In this document: one piece after another, positions 45,563 through 57,316 of the stretch
How positions within the stretch are numbered: position 1 is the stretch's first letter
How the letters are laid out: the number at the start of each line of letters is the position of its first letter
Assembly: GCA_027486255.1 (NCBI GenBank)
Contig: JAIXPL010000009.1
Location: 61,716 to 125,715, forward strand
From: Comamonadaceae bacterium
Lineage (GTDB): Bacteria; Pseudomonadota; Gammaproteobacteria; Burkholderiales; Burkholderiaceae_C
Direction: 5' to 3'
Length of the DNA: 64,000 nucleotides
The notes under the pieces: model-generated
The model's input: only the letters and a program-made list of their open reading frames with translations
What the model was told of the DNA's origin: nothing
The model's database searches: none
Translations under genes and position numbers: made by a program

Positions 45563-46174
45563 ATGATGCGCGACATGCAGCACGACGCCATTTCCTTGAA
45601 AACGCACGGCCCCAGCCGCCGGCAGCTGTTGGTGGGTGCGGCCGGCCTGGCGCTGGGCCCCGCCTATGCCAACAACCAGGTCCGGGAAGCGGCCGTGTTC
45701 GCCGGGCAGCTGCGCCAGGGCGGCTGCGCCGTGGTGATCCGCCATGCCCAGACCGAGCCCGGTCTGGGCGACCCCCCCGGCTTCCGGCTCGATGAATGCG
45801 GCACGCAGCGCCAGCTCAGTCTGGCCGGCCGCGAGCAATCAAAACGGTTGGGCCAATGGTTCGCCCAGCGCAAGCTGCTGCCGCGCGAGGTGCGCACCAG
45901 CCAGTGGTGCCGCTGCCGACACACGGCCGAGCTGGCCTTCGGCAGCGCCACCGAGTGGCCGGCCCTGAACTCCACCTTCGGTGACAGCCGTCCGCAGGCT
46001 GCCCAGACTGCGCAGCTGCGCGAACGGCTGGCACAGATTCCCGAGCGGCAGTTCGAGGTTTGGGTCACGCACCAGGTCAACATGACCGACCTCACAGACC
46101 AGTACCCCTCCATGGGCGAAGCCTTCCTGGTAGACACCACCGGCCGCATGCGCGGTCGCTTCATGTTCGCCTGA
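45563..46174 (+). CDS. Histidine phosphatase family protein with twin-arginine-like N-terminus
   Basis: SRRQLLVGAAGLALG; VIRHAQTEPG; ends FLVDTTGRMRGRFMFA. Confidence 0.85.
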   Translation: MMRDMQHDAISLKTHGPSRRQLLVGAAGLALGPAYANNQVREAAVFAGQLRQGGCAVVIRHAQTEPGLGDPPGFRLDECGTQRQLSLAGREQSKRLGQWFAQRKLLPREVRTSQWCRCRHTAELAFGSATEWPALNSTFGDSRPQAAQTAQLRERLAQIPERQFEVWVTHQVNMTDLTDQYPSMGEAFLVDTTGRMRGRFMFA

Positions 46175-46229
46175 GGCGCCTTCAGAGCGGCGGCGCCGGA
46201 TGCCGCGTGCGAGCAAAGCTGGCGATGGC
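46124..46229. repeat. Left copy of ~106 bp imperfect direct repeat
   Basis: Aligns without gaps to 54367-54472 (offset 8243); 13 mismatches counted by eye, with the last ~50 bp differing at one base. Confidence 0.9.
46182..46229 (-). pseudogene. Remnant of the MFS gene 3' end (AIASFARTRHPAPPL)
   Basis: Same 15 C-terminal residues as the intact MFS protein at 54425-55840. Confidence 0.85.
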
Positions 46230-46333
46230 CGGCAAACACCCGAGGCAATCCCGGAAAAAGCCAGTGGAGAGGCCCCGACTTTCATGGCCTGGAGCCTCGT
46301 CGGCCGGCCGGACCACCGCAGGGCCCCAGCGAC

Positions 46334-47557
46334 TCAGCCTGCTGCGGGTAACAGAGTGCGCAACGGCTGCGCGGGATCGGCGATGCGTTCGGGCGTGGGC
46401 TGGACGCCGGCCTCCAGCAGCTTGCGCGCAACCATGAAGTCGGCCGGCGCATTGACCGCCTCGGCGCAGCGCAACAGTTCCTTCTGGAAGTGAAACAAAC
46501 TGAAACTGCTGGGTTGGGCGCCGGCACGCCGCACGGTGCGCACCGGGCCGGGGTCCAGCAGGCCCACCATCTGCAAGCGCATGCCGCCCTGCTCGGACCA
46601 GAACCAGGGCACAGGCTGGTACGGCTGCGGTGGCCCGCCCAGCAGCGTAGCCGCTGCCACGCGGGCCTGGTCCTGCGCGTTCTGAATGGACTCCAACCGC
46701 AAGTCGGCGCCGCGCCAGCCAAAGCGGGTGCAGTCGCCGATGGCCAGGATCTGCGGGTCGCTGGTGCGCTGCAGGGCATCGACCACGATGCCGTCGGAGC
46801 AGGCCAAACCGGCAGACTCGGCCAGCTCGGTGTTGGGCTGCGCGCCGATGGCCAGCAGCAACTGATCGACCGCGTGCGCACCCGAGGTACCTTCCAACCG
46901 GACCAGTCGTTGGTGGCTGAAGCTGGGGGCGCCCACTTCCGCCAGCAGTTCGATGCGGATGCCGGCGGCCCGGTGCTGCTCGAGCACATGCGCGGACAGG
47001 GCCTCGGAAACGGCCCGGCCCATCAGGCGCGGACCCGTTTCGAGGACCGTCACCGGCTTTCCCAGGACAGCGCAGGTAGCCGCAACCTCCAGGCCGATGA
47101 ACCCACCGCCCAGAATGGTGAGCGAGCGGCAGGCCGCCAAGGCTTCGCGCAGGGCGCGCGCGTCCTGCGCGCTGCGCAGTACATGGACATTGGACGCTGA
47201 AGGCCAGCCGGGCAGACGACGTGCGCGTGCGCCAGTCGCCAGCACCAGCTGGCCGTAGGCCAGGCTGCGGCCCGAGCGCAGGCCTAGGCTGCGGGCCTGC
47301 CGGTCCAAGGAATTGACGGGATCGTCCAGGAAGCACTGCACGCCGGCCGCGGCAAACCAAGCAGCATCGCGCAGCGGCTGCGCCGGCTCGTCAGGTTTTT
47401 TCAGGAAGGCCTTGGACAGAGGCGGACGTTGGTAGGGCAGCGCGTCTTCTTCGCCGACCAGATACACACGCGGCCCCTGACCGGCGTCAACAAGACTGGT
47501 GCAAAGCGCCATCCCAGCATGCCCGGCACCCACGATCACGATAGGGTCCGCACTCAT
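46334..47557 (-). CDS. Ferredoxin reductase, FAD-dependent (putidaredoxin/rhodocoxin reductase type)
   Basis: IVGAGHAGMALCTSL; TILGGGFIGLEVAATC; AIGDCTRFGW. Confidence 0.9.
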   Translation of the reverse strand: MSADPIVIVGAGHAGMALCTSLVDAGQGPRVYLVGEEDALPYQRPPLSKAFLKKPDEPAQPLRDAAWFAAAGVQCFLDDPVNSLDRQARSLGLRSGRSLAYGQLVLATGARARRLPGWPSASNVHVLRSAQDARALREALAACRSLTILGGGFIGLEVAATCAVLGKPVTVLETGPRLMGRAVSEALSAHVLEQHRAAGIRIELLAEVGAPSFSHQRLVRLEGTSGAHAVDQLLLAIGAQPNTELAESAGLACSDGIVVDALQRTSDPQILAIGDCTRFGWRGADLRLESIQNAQDQARVAAATLLGGPPQPYQPVPWFWSEQGGMRLQMVGLLDPGPVRTVRRAGAQPSSFSLFHFQKELLRCAEAVNAPADFMVARKLLEAGVQPTPERIADPAQPLRTLLPAAG

Positions 47558-48108
47558 AGCTGACCTTTGTTAGCGCCTAGCCGGTTGACGCGTTTGCGCT
47601 GCGCCTGGGGATGGCGCTGGTGCAAGTAGCGTCGAGTAGCCTCCTCGACCGCCGGAAGATTGTCGTGCAAGCGGCGCAGCAGATCGAGCAGCGCCTCCCG
47701 CTCCTTGGGGGACAGAGGGGACAGCAGGGCGCGTTCGCGCTCAAGGGCCAGCTCGCGAATCTCGTCGTGCAGGGCCTGGCCCTTGGCCGTGATGCTGGCT
47801 AGACGCAAGCGGCCGTCGTTCACATCCAGGCCAATGGTGATCAACCCATCGGACTGCATGCGCTTGAAGGCCCGGCTGGCCGAGGCCTTATCCATGCCGA
47901 TCACCCGGCAGGCGTGCTGAGCTGACAAGGTGCGCTCAATGGCCAGCAGCACCAACAGGCGCCAAGTTTCGATCCCTGTGCCGAAGGCTGTGAGGTAAGC
48001 CTGCGAAGCACCGCCCGAGAGCTTGTTAGAAATCCACGTGAGATACCCCGGCACATAGCGGTCGAGGTCGATCCGCGCCGAGGCGCGCGCGACCTGAGCG
48101 GCCTTCAT
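47554..48108 (-). CDS. MarR family transcriptional regulator
   Basis: YLTWISNKLSGGASQAYLTAFGTGIETWRLLVLLA...RVIGMDKASASRAFKRMQSDGLI...DGRLRLASIT; ATGA overlaps with both neighbours. Confidence 0.88.
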   Translation of the reverse strand: MKAAQVARASARIDLDRYVPGYLTWISNKLSGGASQAYLTAFGTGIETWRLLVLLAIERTLSAQHACRVIGMDKASASRAFKRMQSDGLITIGLDVNDGRLRLASITAKGQALHDEIRELALERERALLSPLSPKEREALLDLLRRLHDNLPAVEEATRRYLHQRHPQAQRKRVNRLGANKGQL

Positions 48109-48428
48109 TGCTGGCTGGCTGGCATCCGCAGCACCAGCCCGTTGAGCTCTGCGTGGACCTTGATCTGGCAGGACAGCCGGCTTTGCGGCAGGCGCTCGCT
48201 CGAGGTGCACTCTAGCATTTCGAGCTCGTTAGACAGTGGCGGCTGGACCTTGTCCAGCCAGGCCGGATCGATGTAGACGTGACAGGTGGCGCACATGGCC
48301 GAGCCACCGCACTCGCCAACGATGCCCCGCACGCCTGCGGCCACCGCTGCCTGCATGACGCTATGACCTTGCGGGACGTGCAGCTCGCTGCGCTGGCCTT
48401 CGTGAGTGATTAGATAAATGACAGGCAT
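48105..48428 (-). CDS. [2Fe-2S] ferredoxin (adrenodoxin/putidaredoxin type)
   Basis: CGGSAMCATCHVYIDPAWLD...E-LEML...RLSCQIKV. Confidence 0.92.
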   Translation of the reverse strand: MPVIYLITHEGQRSELHVPQGHSVMQAAVAAGVRGIVGECGGSAMCATCHVYIDPAWLDKVQPPLSNELEMLECTSSERLPQSRLSCQIKVHAELNGLVLRMPASQQ

Positions 48429-48445
48429 GGCAAAAAAGTTAGCGA

Positions 48446-49672
48446 TCAAGGAGGGATTAAACGGAGGGGTAGTGAAGCCAATGCGCGCAGGGTGTTGTTC
48501 AAACGGCGCGTGGGCTCACCCGCCAATTCGATGTGGGCAAAACGCTTAGCGATACCCGCAAGGATGAGCTCGCCCTCTAACCGAGCCACCACCTGACCTA
48601 CGCAGCCGTGGATGCCCGAGCCAAACGCCATGTGGCCGGTGGGCCGGCGGCCGATGTCAAAACGATCGGGGTCCGGCCACTGGCGCTCGTCGCGGTTGGC
48701 GGCGGCCAGTACGGTCAGCACCTTGGAGCCGGCGGGGATCGGAGTCCCCATCAGTTCCACCCCGCGAGAGGTAGTGCGGAAAAAAGTCTGCACGGCCGAC
48801 TCGTAGCGCAGAGATTCCTCGAAGGCCTGGCGCGCCAGACCGGGATCGGCGTGGAGCCTGGCATAGGCCTCGGGGTTGGTGGCAAGGCACCACAAGGCGT
48901 TGCCGATGCCATTGACCGTGGTGTCCACGCCCGCCGAAAGGAAAGATCGCACCAGCATGGGCGCCTCGTCCTGACTGATCTCGCCGGCGTCGGCGGCCTG
49001 GTAAATCTGGTCGCCCAAGCCACCGGGGCGCAGCATGGCTCGCTGGCAGTGAGCCATGATCCAGGCCGTCACCGGCTGCACCTTCTCGGCCGAACGGATC
49101 AGCCGTTCGTTGCGCGGGCCGAAGGCGTTGAAAATCATGTCGCCGTAAAGCAGCAGGTTCTCCCGTCCGTCGGATCCCAAGCCCACAGCGTCGGGGAAAA
49201 CCTTGAGCGGATAGGCCTCGGCGATACGCGTGACGCCGTCAACGGTCTCGCCGCGGCGGGCCGCCTCGAGTACGCCGTCTAGCAGACGGTCGGCCTCCTG
49301 CGAAAAACTTTCTCGGATCTGAGCGACGGTGCGAGGCGACAGAATGCGCGAAAGAATAGTTCGCGCGCGGGTGTGGTTGGGCGGGTCCGCCTCCAGGATC
49401 AGGCTCTTGGGCCGAAAGGGTGGCTCCTTGTTGAAGTTGGCAAGTCCCACGCCCGCCGAAGAGATGTAGTTCTCGTGATCGTTGAGGACATGACGCACCG
49501 GCTCATGGCGGCCGGTGACATAGATACCGTACTTGGGCATCCACACCACGGGGCCCGCCGCGCGCAGGCGCTCATGGTAGGGATATGGGTCGGCAAGCAG
49601 CGCGTTGGAAAACGGATCGACGTCCAGCACGGGCACGCCTGCGGGGGCGGCTGGCATGGTGTCAGTAGTCAT
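48446..49672 (-). CDS. Cytochrome P450, CYP199A-like
   Basis: I-helix SAGVDTTVNGI, ExxR EESLRYES, heme loop FGSGIHGCVGQ. Long blocks (ISSAGVGLANFNKEPPFRPKSLILEADPP, LVRSFLSAG.DTTVNGI) match recalled CYP199A sequences. Confidence 0.9.
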   Translation of the reverse strand: MTTDTMPAAPAGVPVLDVDPFSNALLADPYPYHERLRAAGPVVWMPKYGIYVTGRHEPVRHVLNDHENYISSAGVGLANFNKEPPFRPKSLILEADPPNHTRARTILSRILSPRTVAQIRESFSQEADRLLDGVLEAARRGETVDGVTRIAEAYPLKVFPDAVGLGSDGRENLLLYGDMIFNAFGPRNERLIRSAEKVQPVTAWIMAHCQRAMLRPGGLGDQIYQAADAGEISQDEAPMLVRSFLSAGVDTTVNGIGNALWCLATNPEAYARLHADPGLARQAFEESLRYESAVQTFFRTTSRGVELMGTPIPAGSKVLTVLAAANRDERQWPDPDRFDIGRRPTGHMAFGSGIHGCVGQVVARLEGELILAGIAKRFAHIELAGEPTRRLNNTLRALASLPLRLIPP

Positions 49673-49693
49673 GTGAAAGCTCCATCTATAGAT

Positions 49694-50404
49694 TCAGTGG
49701 GCACCCGCGACACCCACATAGCGCTCGAGCAACTCGGGCCGCGCGCTCAGGCTGTGGCAGGCTTCGCGGTGAACCACGGCGCCGCGCTCGAGCACGATGG
49801 CCTGCTGCGCAAAGCGCAGCGCCGCCTCGACCTTTTGCTCGACGAGCACCACGGCCACGCCGGTCTGGCTGGCCAGCCGGGTGAAAGCTGCCATGAGCTC
49901 CTGGCAGATGATGGGCGCCAGCCCCTCCAGCGGCTCGTCGCGCAGCAGACGCCGCGGCTGGCCCAACAGCGTGCGTGCGACGCTGAGCATCTGCTGCTCT
50001 CCGCCGGAGAGCTGGCTACCGCCATTGCGCCGGCGTTCAGCCAGGCGCGGAAAGAGCTCATAGGCCTCCTGCACGTAGCGGACCGGTCGGCCCTTGAGCC
50101 CGGTGACCAGATTTTCCTCCACCGTGAGCGAGGGAAAGATGTCGCGCGTCTGCGGCACATAGCCCAGACCCGCCAGCGCGCGCGCGCCAGGCCCGGTCTG
50201 GCCCAGGGGGCGGCCCTCCAGACGCACTGTGCCCCGGCGCACGTCGGCCAGCCCCATCAAGGCCTTGAGCAGTGTGGTCTTACCCACACCGTTGCGGCCA
50301 ATCAAGGCCAGTCGCTCGCCGGGCTCAACGGCCAACTCAATACCGTGCAGCACCTGCACCGGGCCGTAGCCGGCGTGCAGGTCATTGACTTCCAGCAAAG
50401 CCAT
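49694..50404 (-). CDS. Liv-type ABC transporter ATP-binding protein (LivF-like), atypical Walker B
   Basis: GRNGVGKTTLLKALMG, LSGGEQQMLSVARTLL, RRLLRDEPLEGLAP. Confidence 0.9.
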   Translation of the reverse strand: MALLEVNDLHAGYGPVQVLHGIELAVEPGERLALIGRNGVGKTTLLKALMGLADVRRGTVRLEGRPLGQTGPGARALAGLGYVPQTRDIFPSLTVEENLVTGLKGRPVRYVQEAYELFPRLAERRRNGGSQLSGGEQQMLSVARTLLGQPRRLLRDEPLEGLAPIICQELMAAFTRLASQTGVAVVLVEQKVEAALRFAQQAIVLERGAVVHREACHSLSARPELLERYVGVAGAH

Positions 50405-50407
50405 GCT

Positions 50408-51157
50408 TTAGCCCTCCTCGCCCAGATAGGCCGCGCGCACAGCAGGGTGGAGACGGATATCTGCAGGGCTGCCCTCGGCCAACACCGCGCCTTCGGCCAG
50501 TACCATCATGCGGTCGGCGAAATTGAAGACCAGGTCCATGTCGTGCTCGATCATGAGAATCGCCAAGTCGGCGGGCAGACTGTCCAGCGCCTGGAGCACC
50601 ACCTGGCGCTCACCGGAGGGCACGCCCGCCATGGGCTCGTCGAGCAGCAGCACGCGCGGGCGCAAGGCCATGGCCAGCGCGATCTCCACCAAGCGCTGCT
50701 CGCCATAAGCCAGCTCCACGGGGGCGCGGGCAGCCAGCGCATCCATGCGCAGGGACTGCAAGATGCTCTGGGCCTCACCCTGCACTGCGCTGTAACTGCC
50801 AAGCGGCCGCCAGAGTCTGCCGATGGAACCCTCGCGTTCGTGAATAGCCATTTCCACCTGCAGCCGCACCGGCAAGGTGGGTGCAAGCTGGGTAATCTGG
50901 AAAGTGCGCACCAGGCCGCGCTTGACCCGCTGGGCCTGACTTAACGCGCTCACATCCTCGCCGGCTAGGCATACGCTGCCAGCGCTGGGTGCCAGCACGC
51001 CGGTGATGAGGTTGATAAGGGTGGTCTTACCCGCGCCGTTGGGCCCGATCAGACCGACCTTGTCCCCCGCCTGGAGGCGCAAGTTGATGTCGCGGGTGAC
51101 CTGCAAGCCACCAAAGGACTTGCGCAGCTGCCGGGTCTCGAGCAGCGGCGCACTCAT
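50408..51157 (-). CDS. Liv-type ABC transporter ATP-binding protein (LivG-like)
   Basis: GPNGAGKTTLINLITG; LLLDEPMAGVPSGE. Confidence 0.92.
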   Translation of the reverse strand: MSAPLLETRQLRKSFGGLQVTRDINLRLQAGDKVGLIGPNGAGKTTLINLITGVLAPSAGSVCLAGEDVSALSQAQRVKRGLVRTFQITQLAPTLPVRLQVEMAIHEREGSIGRLWRPLGSYSAVQGEAQSILQSLRMDALAARAPVELAYGEQRLVEIALAMALRPRVLLLDEPMAGVPSGERQVVLQALDSLPADLAILMIEHDMDLVFNFADRMMVLAEGAVLAEGSPADIRLHPAVRAAYLGEEG

Positions 51158-52149
51158 GAGGACGCTCTCGCCGGCGAAGCCGCGCGCCTGAACACCTGCA
51201 GCCGCCGCGCCAATTCCTGGCCCCAGCGCTCGCGCGGCACCAGCACCATGGTCACCAATATTCCGCCAATGATGAACAACCAATGATAGGGGTTCAACGT
51301 GGAGGCCCAGTGGTGGATGCTGGCAAAGACCACCGTGCCCACCAGCGCGCCCCACAGGTTACCGGCACCGCCCAGCACCAGCATCACCAGGGCCTCGGCC
51401 GAAAGTTCAAAGCCCAGGGTATCAAGGCCAACGATCTGCGCCACCTGGGCGGCCAGCGCACCAGAGATGCCCGCGAACGCGCCAGCGATGGTGTAGAGCT
51501 TGAGCAGCTGCCAGCGGATGCGCGTGCCCAGAGCCGCCATACGCTGGCGGTTCTGATGGATACCCACACAGGCCAGGCCAAAGGGCGACGCCATCAGCCT
51601 GCGCATCAGCCACAGGCTGATGAACATCACGACAAAGCAGTAGACAAAGGCCACCCGGCCCTGCAGGTCAAACGATGCCAAGCCCAAGATTTTGCTTATG
51701 GTGAATCCAGAGAGTCCATCATCGCCGCCCGTCCACTGGCGCAGCTTGCTCGCCAGATTCTGCGCGATCTGACTGATGGCGATGGTCAGCATCAAAAAGG
51801 TCAGGCCCTCGTAGCGCAGCAGAAAAAGGCCGCTCAAGAACGCCAACAGCGCACCCGCACAAGCACCGGCCAGCAGGCCCAGCAAAGGGTTGCCCGTCAG
51901 GTGCATGGCCAGCAGCCCAGCCGCGTAGGCGCCCACGCCATACATGGCCGAATGACCTAGCGTGGCCAGCCCGCCATAGCCAACCACCAAGTCCAGTGAC
52001 ATCACGAAGATGGCCAAAGCCGCAATTCGCGCGGCCATGGGCAGCTGGTCTGGGAATACAAAATAGATCAACAGCGCCAAGCACAGCAAGGCCGCATAGG
52101 GCAGCACCTGGCGCCACAGCGGCGAGGCATGAAGGGACAGGCCAGTCAT
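51154..52149 (-). CDS. Liv-type ABC transporter permease (LivM-like)
   Basis: DLVVGYGGLATLGHSAMYGVGAYAAGLL. Confidence 0.92.
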   Translation of the reverse strand: MTGLSLHASPLWRQVLPYAALLCLALLIYFVFPDQLPMAARIAALAIFVMSLDLVVGYGGLATLGHSAMYGVGAYAAGLLAMHLTGNPLLGLLAGACAGALLAFLSGLFLLRYEGLTFLMLTIAISQIAQNLASKLRQWTGGDDGLSGFTISKILGLASFDLQGRVAFVYCFVVMFISLWLMRRLMASPFGLACVGIHQNRQRMAALGTRIRWQLLKLYTIAGAFAGISGALAAQVAQIVGLDTLGFELSAEALVMLVLGGAGNLWGALVGTVVFASIHHWASTLNPYHWLFIIGGILVTMVLVPRERWGQELARRLQVFRRAASPARASS

Positions 52150-52167
52150 GGGGGCAGCGCCAAGTGT

Positions 52168-53034
52168 TCAGGTGCTCCGGGCCACCAGCAGCCCCTGCGG
52201 GCGCCAGGCCAGGAAAAGCGCCATGGACAGGAAAAAAAACAAGCTTCCCCAGTCTGAGGCCAGGTACTTGCTCGCGGTCTCAATGGTGCCCAAGGCCAGG
52301 GCTGCCACTGCAGAACCGGTGATGCTGCCCATACCGCCCACGGCTACCACCACCAACACGAGCACCAGGTACTTGATGGGGTAGTAGGGCTCCAGGGGCA
52401 TGAGCTCGGCGCCCAGGATCCCGCCCAGCCCGGCCAGGGCAGCACCCGCGCCAAAGGTCAGCGCATAAACCCACTGCACCGGAATACCTAAAGCGGCAGC
52501 AGCACCTGTATTGTCCACCGTGGCGCGCAACCAGATGCCAAAGCGCGAGCGCCCAAGCACCCAGGCGCTCAGCAGCAGCACCGCCAGGCCCGCGGCGATG
52601 ACCAGCAGGCGCTGCGCCGGCAAAGTGCGGATGCCCAGATCGACCGGCGTCTTGAGCCAGCCGGGCAGAGGGATGAGCTGCACCTCAGGGCCCGCAAACA
52701 GATTGGCGGTGGCCACGAAGAGAAAGGTCAGACCGATGGTGAAGAGCACCTGCTGCAACTCGCTGAGCCGGTAGAGACGGCGCAGTACCAGGGCCTCCAG
52801 CAGCATGCCGAGCAATCCAGTGAGGACCACCGCCGCCAGAGCGCCCCAGGCATACGGCCAGCCCTGCGCGCCCACCAGCCAGGCGGCCAGGTAGCCACCT
52901 GTCATGGCAAAGGCACCATGGGCCAGATTCACGAAGCGCATTAGCCCCAAGGTGACCGACAGACCCACCGCAATGATGAACAGCACCATGCCGTAAGCGA
53001 TGCCATCGATCAAGATGTTGGCCAGCAAAGTCAC
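52168..53034 (-). CDS. Liv-type ABC transporter permease (LivH-like)
   Basis: GLMRFVNLAHGAFAMTGGYLAAWL; C-terminal AWRPQGLLVARST. Confidence 0.92.
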   Translation of the reverse strand: MTLLANILIDGIAYGMVLFIIAVGLSVTLGLMRFVNLAHGAFAMTGGYLAAWLVGAQGWPYAWGALAAVVLTGLLGMLLEALVLRRLYRLSELQQVLFTIGLTFLFVATANLFAGPEVQLIPLPGWLKTPVDLGIRTLPAQRLLVIAAGLAVLLLSAWVLGRSRFGIWLRATVDNTGAAAALGIPVQWVYALTFGAGAALAGLGGILGAELMPLEPYYPIKYLVLVLVVVAVGGMGSITGSAVAALALGTIETASKYLASDWGSLFFFLSMALFLAWRPQGLLVARST

Positions 53035-53060
53035 GCCGTCCCCCAGGGTCTGATCATCGC

Positions 53061-54230
53061 TTACTTGGCCAAGCCGTGGTCGGGCTGGGCCGGGAAGGTC
53101 TGCACTTCCTTGTTGATGAGCAGACCGCCTGGGCCTTTTTCAACGACACGCAGATAGACGTTCTGCGTGATATGGCGGGTGTTGGGGTCGATAGAGACCG
53201 GCCCGCGCGGGCTTTCCCATTTGAGCGTCTTAGCCGCAGCCATAGCCTTGTCCCCGTCGCGCTTACCGCCAGTGGCCTCGATCATCTTGTGAATCACATA
53301 CATGCCATCCCAGGCGCCCACGGTGGCGTAGTTGATGACCGCCTCCTTGTTTTGCTTGTTCACGGCGGCCACAAAGGCTTTGTTGGCGGCGCTGTCGCGC
53401 GCGCCAGAATAGTGGAACAGGGTCGTCAGGCCCAGGGCGCCGTCGCCGAACTTTTGCAGGTCGAACTCGTCGGTCTCGGCCGTGCCCAGGAACTCAATGC
53501 CGGCTTGGCGCAGGCCGTTTTCCTGGTAGGCCTTCACAAACCCCAGGTTAGGCGGTCCACCGGGCAAGAACACATAGACGGCTTGTGCGCCGCTGGCCTT
53601 GATGCGCTGGGCAAATGGCGCGAAGTCGGTGGTGCGCACCGGCATGCGGATGGACTCGGTGACCTGGCCGCCGAGCTTGCTGAACTCGGCCTTGAAGGCA
53701 GTCTCAGCATCGATGCCTGGAGCATAGTCCGATACAGCCGTGACCACGCGCTTGTAGCCCTTTTTGGCCGCATGCTGCGCCGCCGGCACCGTAACTTGCC
53801 ACAGTGTATAGCTGGTGCGGATGTAGAAGTCGGACCTGGTGGTGATGTCGCTGGTGGCGGCATTGAAGATCACCATGGGGGTCTTCGACTCCTGGATGAC
53901 AGGCGCCACCGCCGACGCATTGGGCGAGAAGACAATCCCACCGATGTAATCCACTTTGTCCTTGACAACCAATTCCTGCGCCAGGGTGCGTGTGTTGGCC
54001 GGGTTAGGGCCGCCCTCGTCGCGCCAGACGAACTCGATGTTCTGGCCGGCGAGCTTGCCGCCCTGGCTAGCCACGTAAGCCTCGGCGCCAGCCTTGAACA
54101 AGGTACCGTAGTGCGCAAAAGGCCCCGAGAAGGGCGCAATGATGCCCACCTTAACGGTCTGGGCCTGAGCGGCGCCGACCATGCCCGCCGCCAGCAAGGC
54201 GGCGCCCAACCATTTTGTCCTCATACCCAT
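53061..54230 (-). CDS. ABC transporter substrate-binding protein (Liv type)
   Basis: Signal peptide ...AALLAAGMVGAAQAQ; type I periplasmic binding fold; first gene of the co-oriented set. Confidence 0.9.
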   Translation of the reverse strand: MGMRTKWLGAALLAAGMVGAAQAQTVKVGIIAPFSGPFAHYGTLFKAGAEAYVASQGGKLAGQNIEFVWRDEGGPNPANTRTLAQELVVKDKVDYIGGIVFSPNASAVAPVIQESKTPMVIFNAATSDITTRSDFYIRTSYTLWQVTVPAAQHAAKKGYKRVVTAVSDYAPGIDAETAFKAEFSKLGGQVTESIRMPVRTTDFAPFAQRIKASGAQAVYVFLPGGPPNLGFVKAYQENGLRQAGIEFLGTAETDEFDLQKFGDGALGLTTLFHYSGARDSAANKAFVAAVNKQNKEAVINYATVGAWDGMYVIHKMIEATGGKRDGDKAMAAAKTLKWESPRGPVSIDPNTRHITQNVYLRVVEKGPGGLLINKEVQTFPAQPDHGLAK

Positions 54231-54366
54231 GCGTGTCTCCTGCTCGTTTAAGTTCGCAAACGCTTATTGCGCCCGCGTGTACAACTGTCATCTCCAGATG
54301 GTTGACATGTCTACTAGTGGAAATACCAAGCATTCCCGAGTAAGCAAAAAACCAGCCGCTCTGATT

Positions 54367-54417
54367 TTCTTGGTGAACACCACCGGCCGCATGCCCGGGC
54401 GCTTCGTCTTCGCTTAA
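54367..54417 (+). pseudogene. Remnant of a histidine phosphatase 3' end (FLVNTTGRMPGRFVFA)
   Basis: 13/16 residues identical to the C-terminus of the intact gene at 45563-46174. Confidence 0.85.
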
Positions 54418-54472
54418 GTGGTCTTCAGAGCGGCGGCGCCGGATGCCGCGTGCGAGCAAAACTGGCGATGGC
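54367..54472. repeat. Right copy of ~106 bp imperfect direct repeat
   Basis: See 46124-46229. Confidence 0.9.
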
Positions 54473-55840
54473 GGCCAGGGCCGACAGCACCGCCGCCACC
54501 AGCAGGGCCTCAGCCATCGACTGTTCAGTGGCGTGGCCGTGGGCTGCAAACACCACGGCCACCAAGGTGGCACCCAAGGTCTGACCGGTCAGCCGCCCGG
54601 TGGCGAGCATGCCGCCGGCCGCGCCCGAGCGATCGGGCGGCGCGCTGGTGATCAGGGTGTGGTTGTTGGGCGACTGAAACAGGCCAAAGCCCATCCCGCA
54701 CAAGAGCAGGCACGCAGCGACGGCAAGGTAAGGGCCACCCACCGAAGCCACCCAGGCCAGGCCGGCCAAGCCCAGCGCCTGGCCAGCCAAACCCAGGGCA
54801 CCGAGCCAGCCATTGTGGTAACGGCCGATCCAGCGGCCTGCGAGCGAGGCAGCCACGAAGGTGCCGGCGGGCCAGCACGACATCAGGAAGCCCGCTTGGG
54901 CGGCCGGTGCGTGCCAGGCTTCCAGCAGCAAGAAAGGCAGCACCACATAGGCCATGGTTTGCGCGGCAAAGCTGCCCACGGAGGTCATCATCGAGAGCCG
55001 AAACAAGGGGATGCGCAGCAGGTCCAGCGGCAGCAGGGGCTGGGCCTGGCGTGATTGACGGCGCACATGCACCACGGCCACGACGAGGCCGGCGAGCAAG
55101 AGCAGCGCCCCTTGCACCAGGAACTGTGTCCGTTGAGCGGCCGACTTGAGCGAGCGGCCCACGCAGTCAGCGGCCAGAAACAGCAGGCTGAAGAGGCCGG
55201 CATTGAGCACCATGTCCAGCCCGCTCGGGCGCAGCAGCCCGGGTGTGGGCGCGTTGAAGGGCAAGGTGCGCCAGCCCAGCCAGAGCACCAGCGCGCAGGC
55301 CGGCACGTTCAGGGCAAACAGCCAGCGCCAGGACGACACCGACAGAATGGCCGCCGCCACCAGGGGCCCGCACACCGTGGCCAGGCTCACCACCACCGAG
55401 CTCAGGGCCACGCCGCGCCCGAGCTGGGCCGGCGGCCACACCAGGCGCACCAGTGCCATGTTGACGGCCATGAGGCCTGCCGCACCCAGGCCCTGGGCCA
55501 CGCGCGCGGCCATCAGGAGCGGCAAGGAATCGGCCAGGCCCGCCACCGCAGACGCCGTGCCCCAAAGCGCTGCACCCACCAGGTACACGCGGCGAAAGCT
55601 GCTGCGCTCAGCCCAGTTGGCCACCGGCAGCAGGGCCACCAGTGCGGCCAGCTGAAAGGCGTTGATGACCCAGATGGCCTGGTCTGCGGGCACGCCCAGG
55701 TCGCGCGCCATGGTCGGCAGGCCCAGGGTGATGCTGGTGGTGTCCAGCACCGACAGGGCGATGCCCATCAAGATGGTGAAGGCGGCGAGGTGGCGCTCGC
55801 GACCCGTCAGGCCGGTCGGTGGGGAAGAGGCAGGCAGCAT
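54425..55840 (-). CDS. MFS transporter (DHA2/EmrB-like drug efflux)
   Basis: SVLDTTSITLGLPTMARDLGVPADQAIWVINAFQLA; multiple TM segments. Confidence 0.9.
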   Translation of the reverse strand: MLPASSPPTGLTGRERHLAAFTILMGIALSVLDTTSITLGLPTMARDLGVPADQAIWVINAFQLAALVALLPVANWAERSSFRRVYLVGAALWGTASAVAGLADSLPLLMAARVAQGLGAAGLMAVNMALVRLVWPPAQLGRGVALSSVVVSLATVCGPLVAAAILSVSSWRWLFALNVPACALVLWLGWRTLPFNAPTPGLLRPSGLDMVLNAGLFSLLFLAADCVGRSLKSAAQRTQFLVQGALLLLAGLVVAVVHVRRQSRQAQPLLPLDLLRIPLFRLSMMTSVGSFAAQTMAYVVLPFLLLEAWHAPAAQAGFLMSCWPAGTFVAASLAGRWIGRYHNGWLGALGLAGQALGLAGLAWVASVGGPYLAVAACLLLCGMGFGLFQSPNNHTLITSAPPDRSGAAGGMLATGRLTGQTLGATLVAVVFAAHGHATEQSMAEALLVAAVLSALAAIASFARTRHPAPPL

Positions 55841-55879: not shown

Positions 55880-57316
55880 TCACTTGCCGATGCAGAACTT
55901 GGAGAAGATCTCGCCCAGCAGATCATCGGGCGTGAACTCGCCTGTGATGTGGCTCAGCGCCTGTTGGGCCTGGCGCAGGTCTTCGGCCAACAGGTCCAGG
56001 GCGGGAGCGGGCGAGCTGAGCTGCGCGCTGGCCTGTTCGAGCTGCACGCGCACGGTGTGCAGGGCTTGCACGTGGCGCTCGCGCGCCATGAAGAGGCCCT
56101 CGGGTGCCGACTGCCAACCGGCGATGTCCAGCAGGCGCTGGCGCAGACCGGCCAGGCCCGCGCCGGTCTTGGCAGAGATGGGCAGGCCCTCGCAGGCAGC
56201 CAGCGCCTCAAGGGCGGCCGCATCAGCCTTGTTCCAGACCTGCAGCACCGGGGTGGCGGCGGGCAACTGACGCGCCAGCAGCTCGGCAATCGCCTGGTCA
56301 GCGGCGCGGTGTTCGCGGGCCTCCTCGCCCTGCCCGTGGTGGCGCACCAGGTCGTGCAGGAACAGCACCGCATCGGCGCTCTCAATTTCGGCCCAGGCGC
56401 GGGCGATGCCGATACGCTCGACTTCATCAACACCAGCGCCATCAGGATCACGCAAGCCGGCGGTGTCCACCACGTGCAGAGGCACGCCCTCGATCTGGAT
56501 GAGCTGCGAGACCTTGTCGCGCGTGGTGCCGGCAATGGGCGTGACGATGGCCAGCTCCGCACCCGCCAGCGCGTTGAGCAGCGAGCTCTTGCCCGCATTG
56601 GGCTGGCCGGCAATCACCACCTTGATGCCTTCGCGCAGGATGGCACCCTGCTGCGCCCGCTGCATCACGGCCTGCAGGCGCTGCTGCAAGCGCTGCAGCT
56701 GGCCCTTGGCATCGGCCTGTTCGATGAAGTCGATGTCTTCTTCGGGAAAGTCCAGCGTGGCCTCGACCAGCATGCGCAGGTGCACGAGCTGCTCAAGCAG
56801 GCCGGCGATCTCCTCGGAAAAGGCGCCCGAGAGCGAGCGCGCCGCCGAGCGCGCCGCCGTCTCGGTGCTGGCATCGATCAGGTCGGCAATTGCTTCGGCC
56901 TGGGCCAGGTCGATCTTGTCATTGAGAAAAGCGCGCTGCGTGAACTCGCCGGGCTGGGCCGCGCGCAGGCCGGCCAGGCGCGGGCGGCCGCTGGCATCGG
57001 CCTCGGCAGCAGCTTGCAGGCAGCGCTGCACCAGGAGCTGCAACACCACCGGCCCGCCATGGGCCTGCAGCTCCAGCACGTCTTCGCCGGTGTAGGAGTG
57101 CGGTGCGGGAAAAAACAGGGCCAGACCCTGGTCGATGGGCTGGCCCGACGCATCATGAAAGGGGCCGTAGCTGGCCAGGCGCGGTTGGAGTACGCGACCG
57201 GTGAGGGCCTGCGCCAAGGCGGCCAGGTTCCGGCCGGAGACACGCACCATGCCCACGGCGCCCCGCCCTGGGGCGGTGGCGATGGCGACGATGGGGTCGT
57301 GCTGGCGGGCAAGCAT
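55880..57316 (-). CDS. mnmE: tRNA uridine-5-carboxymethylaminomethyl(34) synthesis GTPase MnmE
   Basis: [39 protein letters not shown]-terminal FCIGK. Confidence 0.95.

Follow-up and report, generated by a model that had tools for sequence, protein, structure and literature searches.

Changes in gene order by tandem duplication followed by complementary loss (TDRL) have been described mainly for mitochondria (e.g. PMC3283314). The locus analysed here lies in a window of 64,000 nt on contig JAIXPL010000009.1 of a Comamonadaceae bacterium (GCA_027486255.1), to which all coordinates refer. It resembles TDRL in that a gene appears to have switched from one side of a block to the other, with leftovers of both the duplicated junction and the lost copy. 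Unlike in TDRL, the genes form a bacterial operon, a two-copy intermediate was not found, and the block has a later, separate divergence history; with a limited set of search terms, no direct parallel for a bacterial relocation by duplication and loss was found in the literature. A second comparison is offered by the microcin H47 island of E. coli, which has long imperfect direct repeats at its ends, lacks a recombinase of its own and was shown experimentally to excise and integrate (PMC3191183, PMC5426353). Our locus likewise consists of about 10 kb enclosed by imperfect direct repeats and free of a recombinase, whereas its repeats can be explained as scars of genes and no empty site was found.

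The minimal mobile element of Saunders and Snyder (2002), as far as the text citing it (PMC1538595) describes the concept, consists of gene sets that are exchanged between conserved flanks by homologous recombination. Likewise, variable gene sets occur here between conserved kefB-apt-phosphatase and mnmE-yidC, and the block shows its own divergence, but the content was compared between species and not between strains. With regard to gene content, the closest systems are those of CYP199A2 and CYP199A4 in Rhodopseudomonas, with which the locus shares a P450 of full-length similarity and nearby genes for a 2Fe-2S ferredoxin and an FAD reductase. It differs from them in being a fixed cluster with a Liv-type importer, a MarR regulator and a conserved probable operator, and in having a substrate that is predicted from sequence. 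We regard the repeats of this locus as scars of the relocation of an MFS transporter gene inside a catabolic cluster rather than as the ends of a mobile element, with a probability of roughly 0.75.

The repeat pair and the genes it encloses

The window belongs to an incomplete MAG (G000; 2.66 Mb in 85 contigs, 89.9% complete). Two direct repeats (46124-46234 and 54367-54477) align without gaps at an offset of 8243 bp and with 15 mismatches over 111 bp, a similarity far above chance in a search of the own genome (E 3.7e-32). They and the neighbouring genes are arranged as follows.

45563..46174, plus strand: intact gene of the histidine phosphatase superfamily, native left flank (ORF; PF00300 match weak, above the cut-off)
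46124..46234, no strand: left repeat copy, made of the intact phosphatase 3' end, a 7-bp spacer and an MFS tail relic
46334..47557, minus strand: FAD ferredoxin reductase, FdR (homology/domain match)
47554..48210, minus strand: MarR-family regulator (domain match)
48105..48449, minus strand: 2Fe-2S ferredoxin (domain match)
48446..49672, minus strand: cytochrome P450, CYP199A-like (closest solved relatives 2fr7 and CYP199A4)
49694..53034, minus strand: importer genes LivF, LivG, LivM and LivH (ORFs, homology/domain match)
53061..54230, minus strand: gene of a periplasmic substrate-binding protein (SBP), at the start of the operon (domain match)
54302..54329, no strand: 28-bp imperfect palindrome, conserved ahead of the SBP gene and probably an operator (sequence comparison)
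54425..55840, minus strand: intact MFS transporter gene in its new location, separated from mnmE by 39 bp (ORF, domain match; gene order compared with relatives)
55880..57316, minus strand: mnmE, native right flank (anchor search in 87 genus genomes)

Much of what the initial annotation had described at this locus was reproduced: the ungapped alignment at this offset with 13 mismatches in the first 106 bp (46124-46229 and 54367-54472), the origin of the repeats from both flanking genes, each copy recreating the former convergent phosphatase-MFS junction, and the whole ORFs of the phosphatase on the left and the MFS transporter on the right. Its statement that the block (FdR, MarR, ferredoxin, P450, LivFGMH and SBP) holds no recombinase was likewise borne out, as none was found among the genes between the repeats in the ORF list or by domain and homology searches. 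Mismatches amount to 9/51 in the phosphatase part of the repeat, 3/7 in the spacer and 1/48 in the MFS part, and the longest identical run measures 38 bp from 46180; the contrast between the phosphatase and MFS parts (Fisher p 0.016) is too weak to be decisive. Gene conversion, or a 48-bp relic conserved by chance, would fit the close match of the MFS-derived part. For an old relic such near-identity is odd, and this, like the lack of the relic in the closest relative of the window (G126), counts against relocation.

The closest solved sequences to the P450 are CYP199A enzymes, which match over the full length (2fr7, 6.2e-144; CYP199A4, 1e-135), while other families appear only from 1e-51. Because CYP199A4 demethylates 4-methoxybenzoate (PMC6021390), the block probably serves as a module for the uptake and oxidation (O-demethylation) of para-substituted benzoates. 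Relatives also carry the palindrome found upstream of SBP, which shows more substitutions in other genera, and the MarR regulator probably uses this candidate site as its operator. Hydrogenophaga, Limnohabitans, Ottowia and Ramlibacter have the same gene order in a different genomic context and without a close MFS copy, and named records sharing the cluster include MAGs of Comamonadaceae and Polaromonas.

Gene order between kefB and mnmE in related genomes

We located mnmE in 81 of the 87 genus genomes and mapped the island-side DNA for nearly all of these, leaving the partial mnmE matches of G052, G111, G020 and G105 out of the locus mapping. The gene sets between the conserved kefB and mnmE vary and comprise the cluster, an aldolase-Bug pair, or neither. 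By row count, kefB and mnmE share a contig in 57 genus genomes that lack both the MFS gene and the cluster, three of them with an aldolase and a Bug-type binding protein in place of the cluster. One genome (G053) has lost the cluster and kept an FdR end of 47 codons next to ADH, which indicates that deletion scars are not unusual at this locus. Close copies of the MFS gene are present in six genus genomes, and the cluster is found in all six.

A single contig of G013 spans kefB to yidC and has the order kefB-apt> <MFS <aldolase <Bug <FdR ... SBP <ADH <mnmE (arrowheads give gene direction), and the order in G022 is the same within the reach of its contigs. G124 reads kefB-phosphatase> <MFS <FdR up to a contig break and then P450 ... 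SBP <ADH <mnmE, and in the contig-broken G045 the MFS gene directly follows FdR. The MFS gene is thus located at the FdR end of the cluster in all four of these genomes, demonstrably on the kefB/phosphatase side in G124, G013 and G022. A location between SBP and mnmE was found in the window and in G126 only. The key relatives are all MAGs, and in G124, G022 and G045 contig breaks fall within the cluster, which also counts against relocation.

Scars of the MFS junctions and divergence of the block

Remnants of the old and new MFS junctions were recognised at both ends of the block, which also differs in divergence from its surroundings.

45981..54463, no strand: segment of raised divergence between the window and G126, 8.1% vs 3.2% outside (change-point fit; fourfold sites)
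46182..46229, minus strand: tail relic of the original MFS gene, comprising the final 15 codons plus stop, absent in G126 (1/48 mismatch to the intact MFS tail)
about 46250..46290, minus strand: relic of the original MFS start region, ATG at 46285, MKVGASP (homologous to the spacer between MFS start and FdR stop in G124/G045)
54367..54417, plus strand: phosphatase 3'-end relic comprising the final 16 codons plus stop, moved along with MFS (9/51 mismatches to the intact copy)

At the left end, the 15 MFS codons behind the phosphatase in the window are missing in G126. The start-region relic beside FdR, which the initial annotation had missed, reads MKVGASP in the window, MQVGAAP in G126 and MQAGASS in G124, and the homology of this FdR-stop/MFS-start region to G124 and G045 reached scores attained by 0 and 4 of 1000 shuffles, respectively. 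A further MFS relic in 46235-46260 was considered and rejected, its 21-bp resemblance being no better than that of shuffles. Tail and start relics at the left indicate that an MFS gene was once there and was deleted internally.

The right-hand joint is situated just behind the conserved region upstream of SBP: homology to G013 stops at ~54353 and the phosphatase relic starts at 54367. G126 also has a phosphatase 3' end before its MFS gene, ~30 bp shorter, and the occurrence of this relic in both genomes implies that it is older than their split. The relic is like the phosphatase of the window and G126 and unlike that of G124, which rules out a G124-type donor. The 39 bp between MFS and mnmE resemble the region upstream of MFS in G124, with weaker support (14/2000 shuffles). 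Together, the internally deleted MFS copy on the left and the intact copy on the right with the tail of its old neighbour point to a stage with two MFS genes. A genome carrying two copies was not found among the genus genomes, where close relatives are represented by one genome, and this counts against relocation.

The change-point fit gained 140 in log-likelihood, while the maximum over 200 block shuffles was 28.7. Its edges, supported at 45931-46001 and 54443-54633, fall in the 3' part of the phosphatase on the left and in the MFS tail on the right, within a heterogeneous background. Between the window and G126, fourfold sites differ by 16-26% from FdR to SBP and by 2-13% in kefB, apt, phosphatase, MFS, mnmE and yidC. 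The genome background, sampled in about 94 one-kb windows, has a mean of 4.7% and a 90th percentile of 7.8%. Another block of 11.7 kb elsewhere differs by ~8% between the same genomes, and the existence of such blocks also counts against relocation; a level of ~8% is not unique in the genome, and it is the position of the edges near the scars that is telling. The divergence of 8.1% in the block vs 3.2% in the flanks, with edges near the scars, indicates a separate recombination history of the block, and on the simplest reading, homologous recombination exchanged it in either the window or the G126 lineage. Of the initial proposal of an acquisition from a diverged relative, the separate history of the block stands, while the insertion of a mobile island is mostly unsupported.

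Relocation is favoured by several observations: the old position of the MFS gene is known from the outgroups G124, G013, G022 and G045, the remains of the lost copy (tail and start relics) are found at this old position, and a piece of the old neighbour (the phosphatase tail) is found at the new position in both the window and G126. The joint presence of MFS and cluster in six genomes and joint absence in 57, the comparable FdR scar of G053 and the divergence step also speak for it. The ancestral locus was probably organised as kefB-(apt)-phosphatase> <MFS <FdR <MarR <Fdx <P450 <Liv <SBP <(ADH) <mnmE, and in the last ancestor shared by the window and G126 an MFS gene with a phosphatase tail would also have been placed between SBP and mnmE. 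The likeliest route would be a tandem duplication of phosphatase-tail/MFS/FdR...SBP, or the Campbell-type integration of an equivalent circle. Complementary loss would have removed the second FdR...SBP and ADH, of which no close copy was found elsewhere in the incomplete window genome. The first MFS gene would have been deleted internally, leaving its ends at 46182-46229 and about 46250-46290, and the phosphatase tail would have stayed at 54367-54417. Later, the FdR...SBP block may have been swapped for a more diverged allele by homologous recombination in the lineage of the window or of G126. The relocated MFS gene would now be outside the operon and its conserved operator. Circle integration, whether or not the cluster had been deleted beforehand, or a transposed copy would leave the same traces as the duplication route. 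The locus is best filed as gene relocation by duplication and loss, and given that one close relative was sampled, membership is claimed for the outcome and not for the tandem route.

Alternative histories and significance

A possible but less probable history is one of loss and return, in which the cluster was deleted to leave phosphatase-MFS-mnmE, a donor phosphatase tail/MFS/FdR...SBP came back by a single crossover, and the redundant donor MFS gene decayed. This single scheme would account for two MFS copies, for the phosphatase relic and for a block with a divergence of its own, and a clean deletion of the cluster is known from G053, but an unseen intermediate and a donor circle are required. 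Moreover, the protein identities of the island drop in the order seen for the flank proteins, from window-G126 to G124/G045 and then to G013/G022, as by inheritance within the clade. It is doubtful that the scars now act as recombination sites, with FdR...SBP being swapped, or dropped and taken up again, as one piece in the species complex without a recombinase; the left divergence edge, located outside the repeat, argues against recombination strictly between the repeats. If true, however, gene relocation would have accidentally made a recombinase-free catabolic cassette.

Unlikely as well, and slightly more so, is the original interpretation, in which an 8.2-kb island entered an existing phosphatase-MFS junction, duplicated it in the process and could leave as a circle by recombination between the repeats. 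The repeat geometry, a block diverged beyond its flanks with edges near the repeats, and the flank-level divergence of MFS and mnmE are all in line with such an insertion. However, the MFS gene belongs to the cluster, with which it occurs in 6/6 genomes, and stands on its other side in the outgroups; its start relic adjoins FdR inside the supposed island, and the left divergence edge is ~140 bp outside the repeat. The initial annotation had advised looking for an empty site and for further copies of the repeat, but no phosphatase-MFS-mnmE locus without the cluster was found among the genus genomes examined, no close MFS copy in 301 family genomes, and no third repeat copy in the 2.66-Mb assembly. 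It had also named a block at the same place in close relatives as an argument against an island, and this is the situation in G126, the closest relative.

An artefact of metagenome assembly at the repeats is highly improbable: the window is a MAG contig and the repeats share 38 exact bp, but both the gene order and the phosphatase relic recur in the independent MAG G126, and the MFS start relic does not consist of repeated sequence. The 3' end of mnmE is a known attachment site (SGI1) and the variable segment abuts it, but a remnant of an integrative element is scarcely credible in view of the last 18 bp of mnmE occurring only once in the window and the lack of an integrase in the block.

On present evidence, this locus is not a recombinase-free mobile island but the trace of an operon-end gene that switched sides. 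The relocation of the MFS gene is probably ordinary bacterial genome reshuffling with unusually readable traces, in which a transporter gene at the end of an operon left it and both cut ends are still legible. It clearly illustrates how two adjacent genes can give rise to direct repeats that look like the ends of a mobile island, a case that relatives with the old gene order resolve, while repeat-based island finders would label the locus a mobile element. The region between kefB and mnmE is a chromosomal spot where an aromatic-degradation module gets reshuffled and lost.

Loss of the P450 cluster in G053, and what else its locus holds in relatives

In the same-genus genome G053, the locus between kefB-apt-phosphatase and mnmE retains a remnant of the ferredoxin reductase (FdR) gene that adjoins an alcohol dehydrogenase gene, and this relic is a scar left by loss of the entire P450 cluster at the same locus.

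L073 6925-7071 (G053): FdR relic, last 47 codons

In many genomes of the genus (L134, L141, L161, and others), the apt/phosphatase-mnmE interval spans ~1.7 kb; one of its ORFs encodes a Crp-like regulator and another begins MSFFNWFSG, a segment that the window lacks. The corresponding kefB-phosphatase/mnmE interval of G045 is spread across contigs (L069, L070, L130) and carries extra catabolic-looking ORFs (AraC-like, transketolase-like, hydratase-like).

Palindrome upstream of SBP and a second diverged stretch

Window 54302-54329: imperfect palindrome, 28 bp, ACTAGT core, upstream of the substrate-binding protein (SBP) gene

This palindrome, self-complementary at 20 of 28 positions, is probably an operator for MarR. 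It is kept in G124, G126, and G013 and also occurs, more substituted, in front of the SBP gene in Hydrogenophaga, Limnohabitans, and Ottowia.

Elsewhere in the window's own genome, 11.7 kb of contig C5 (L233 8384-20000) shares 91.9% identity with the closest relative G126, compared to a sampled mean of ~95%, and is possibly a further exchanged block.

Alcohol dehydrogenase next to mnmE

L105 1-1144 (G013) and L131 (G124): alcohol dehydrogenase gene between SBP and mnmE

This gene, similar to the glutathione-dependent formaldehyde type, is absent from the window and G126, unlike in G013 and G124. Formaldehyde removal by such a dehydrogenase would suit an O-demethylating P450.
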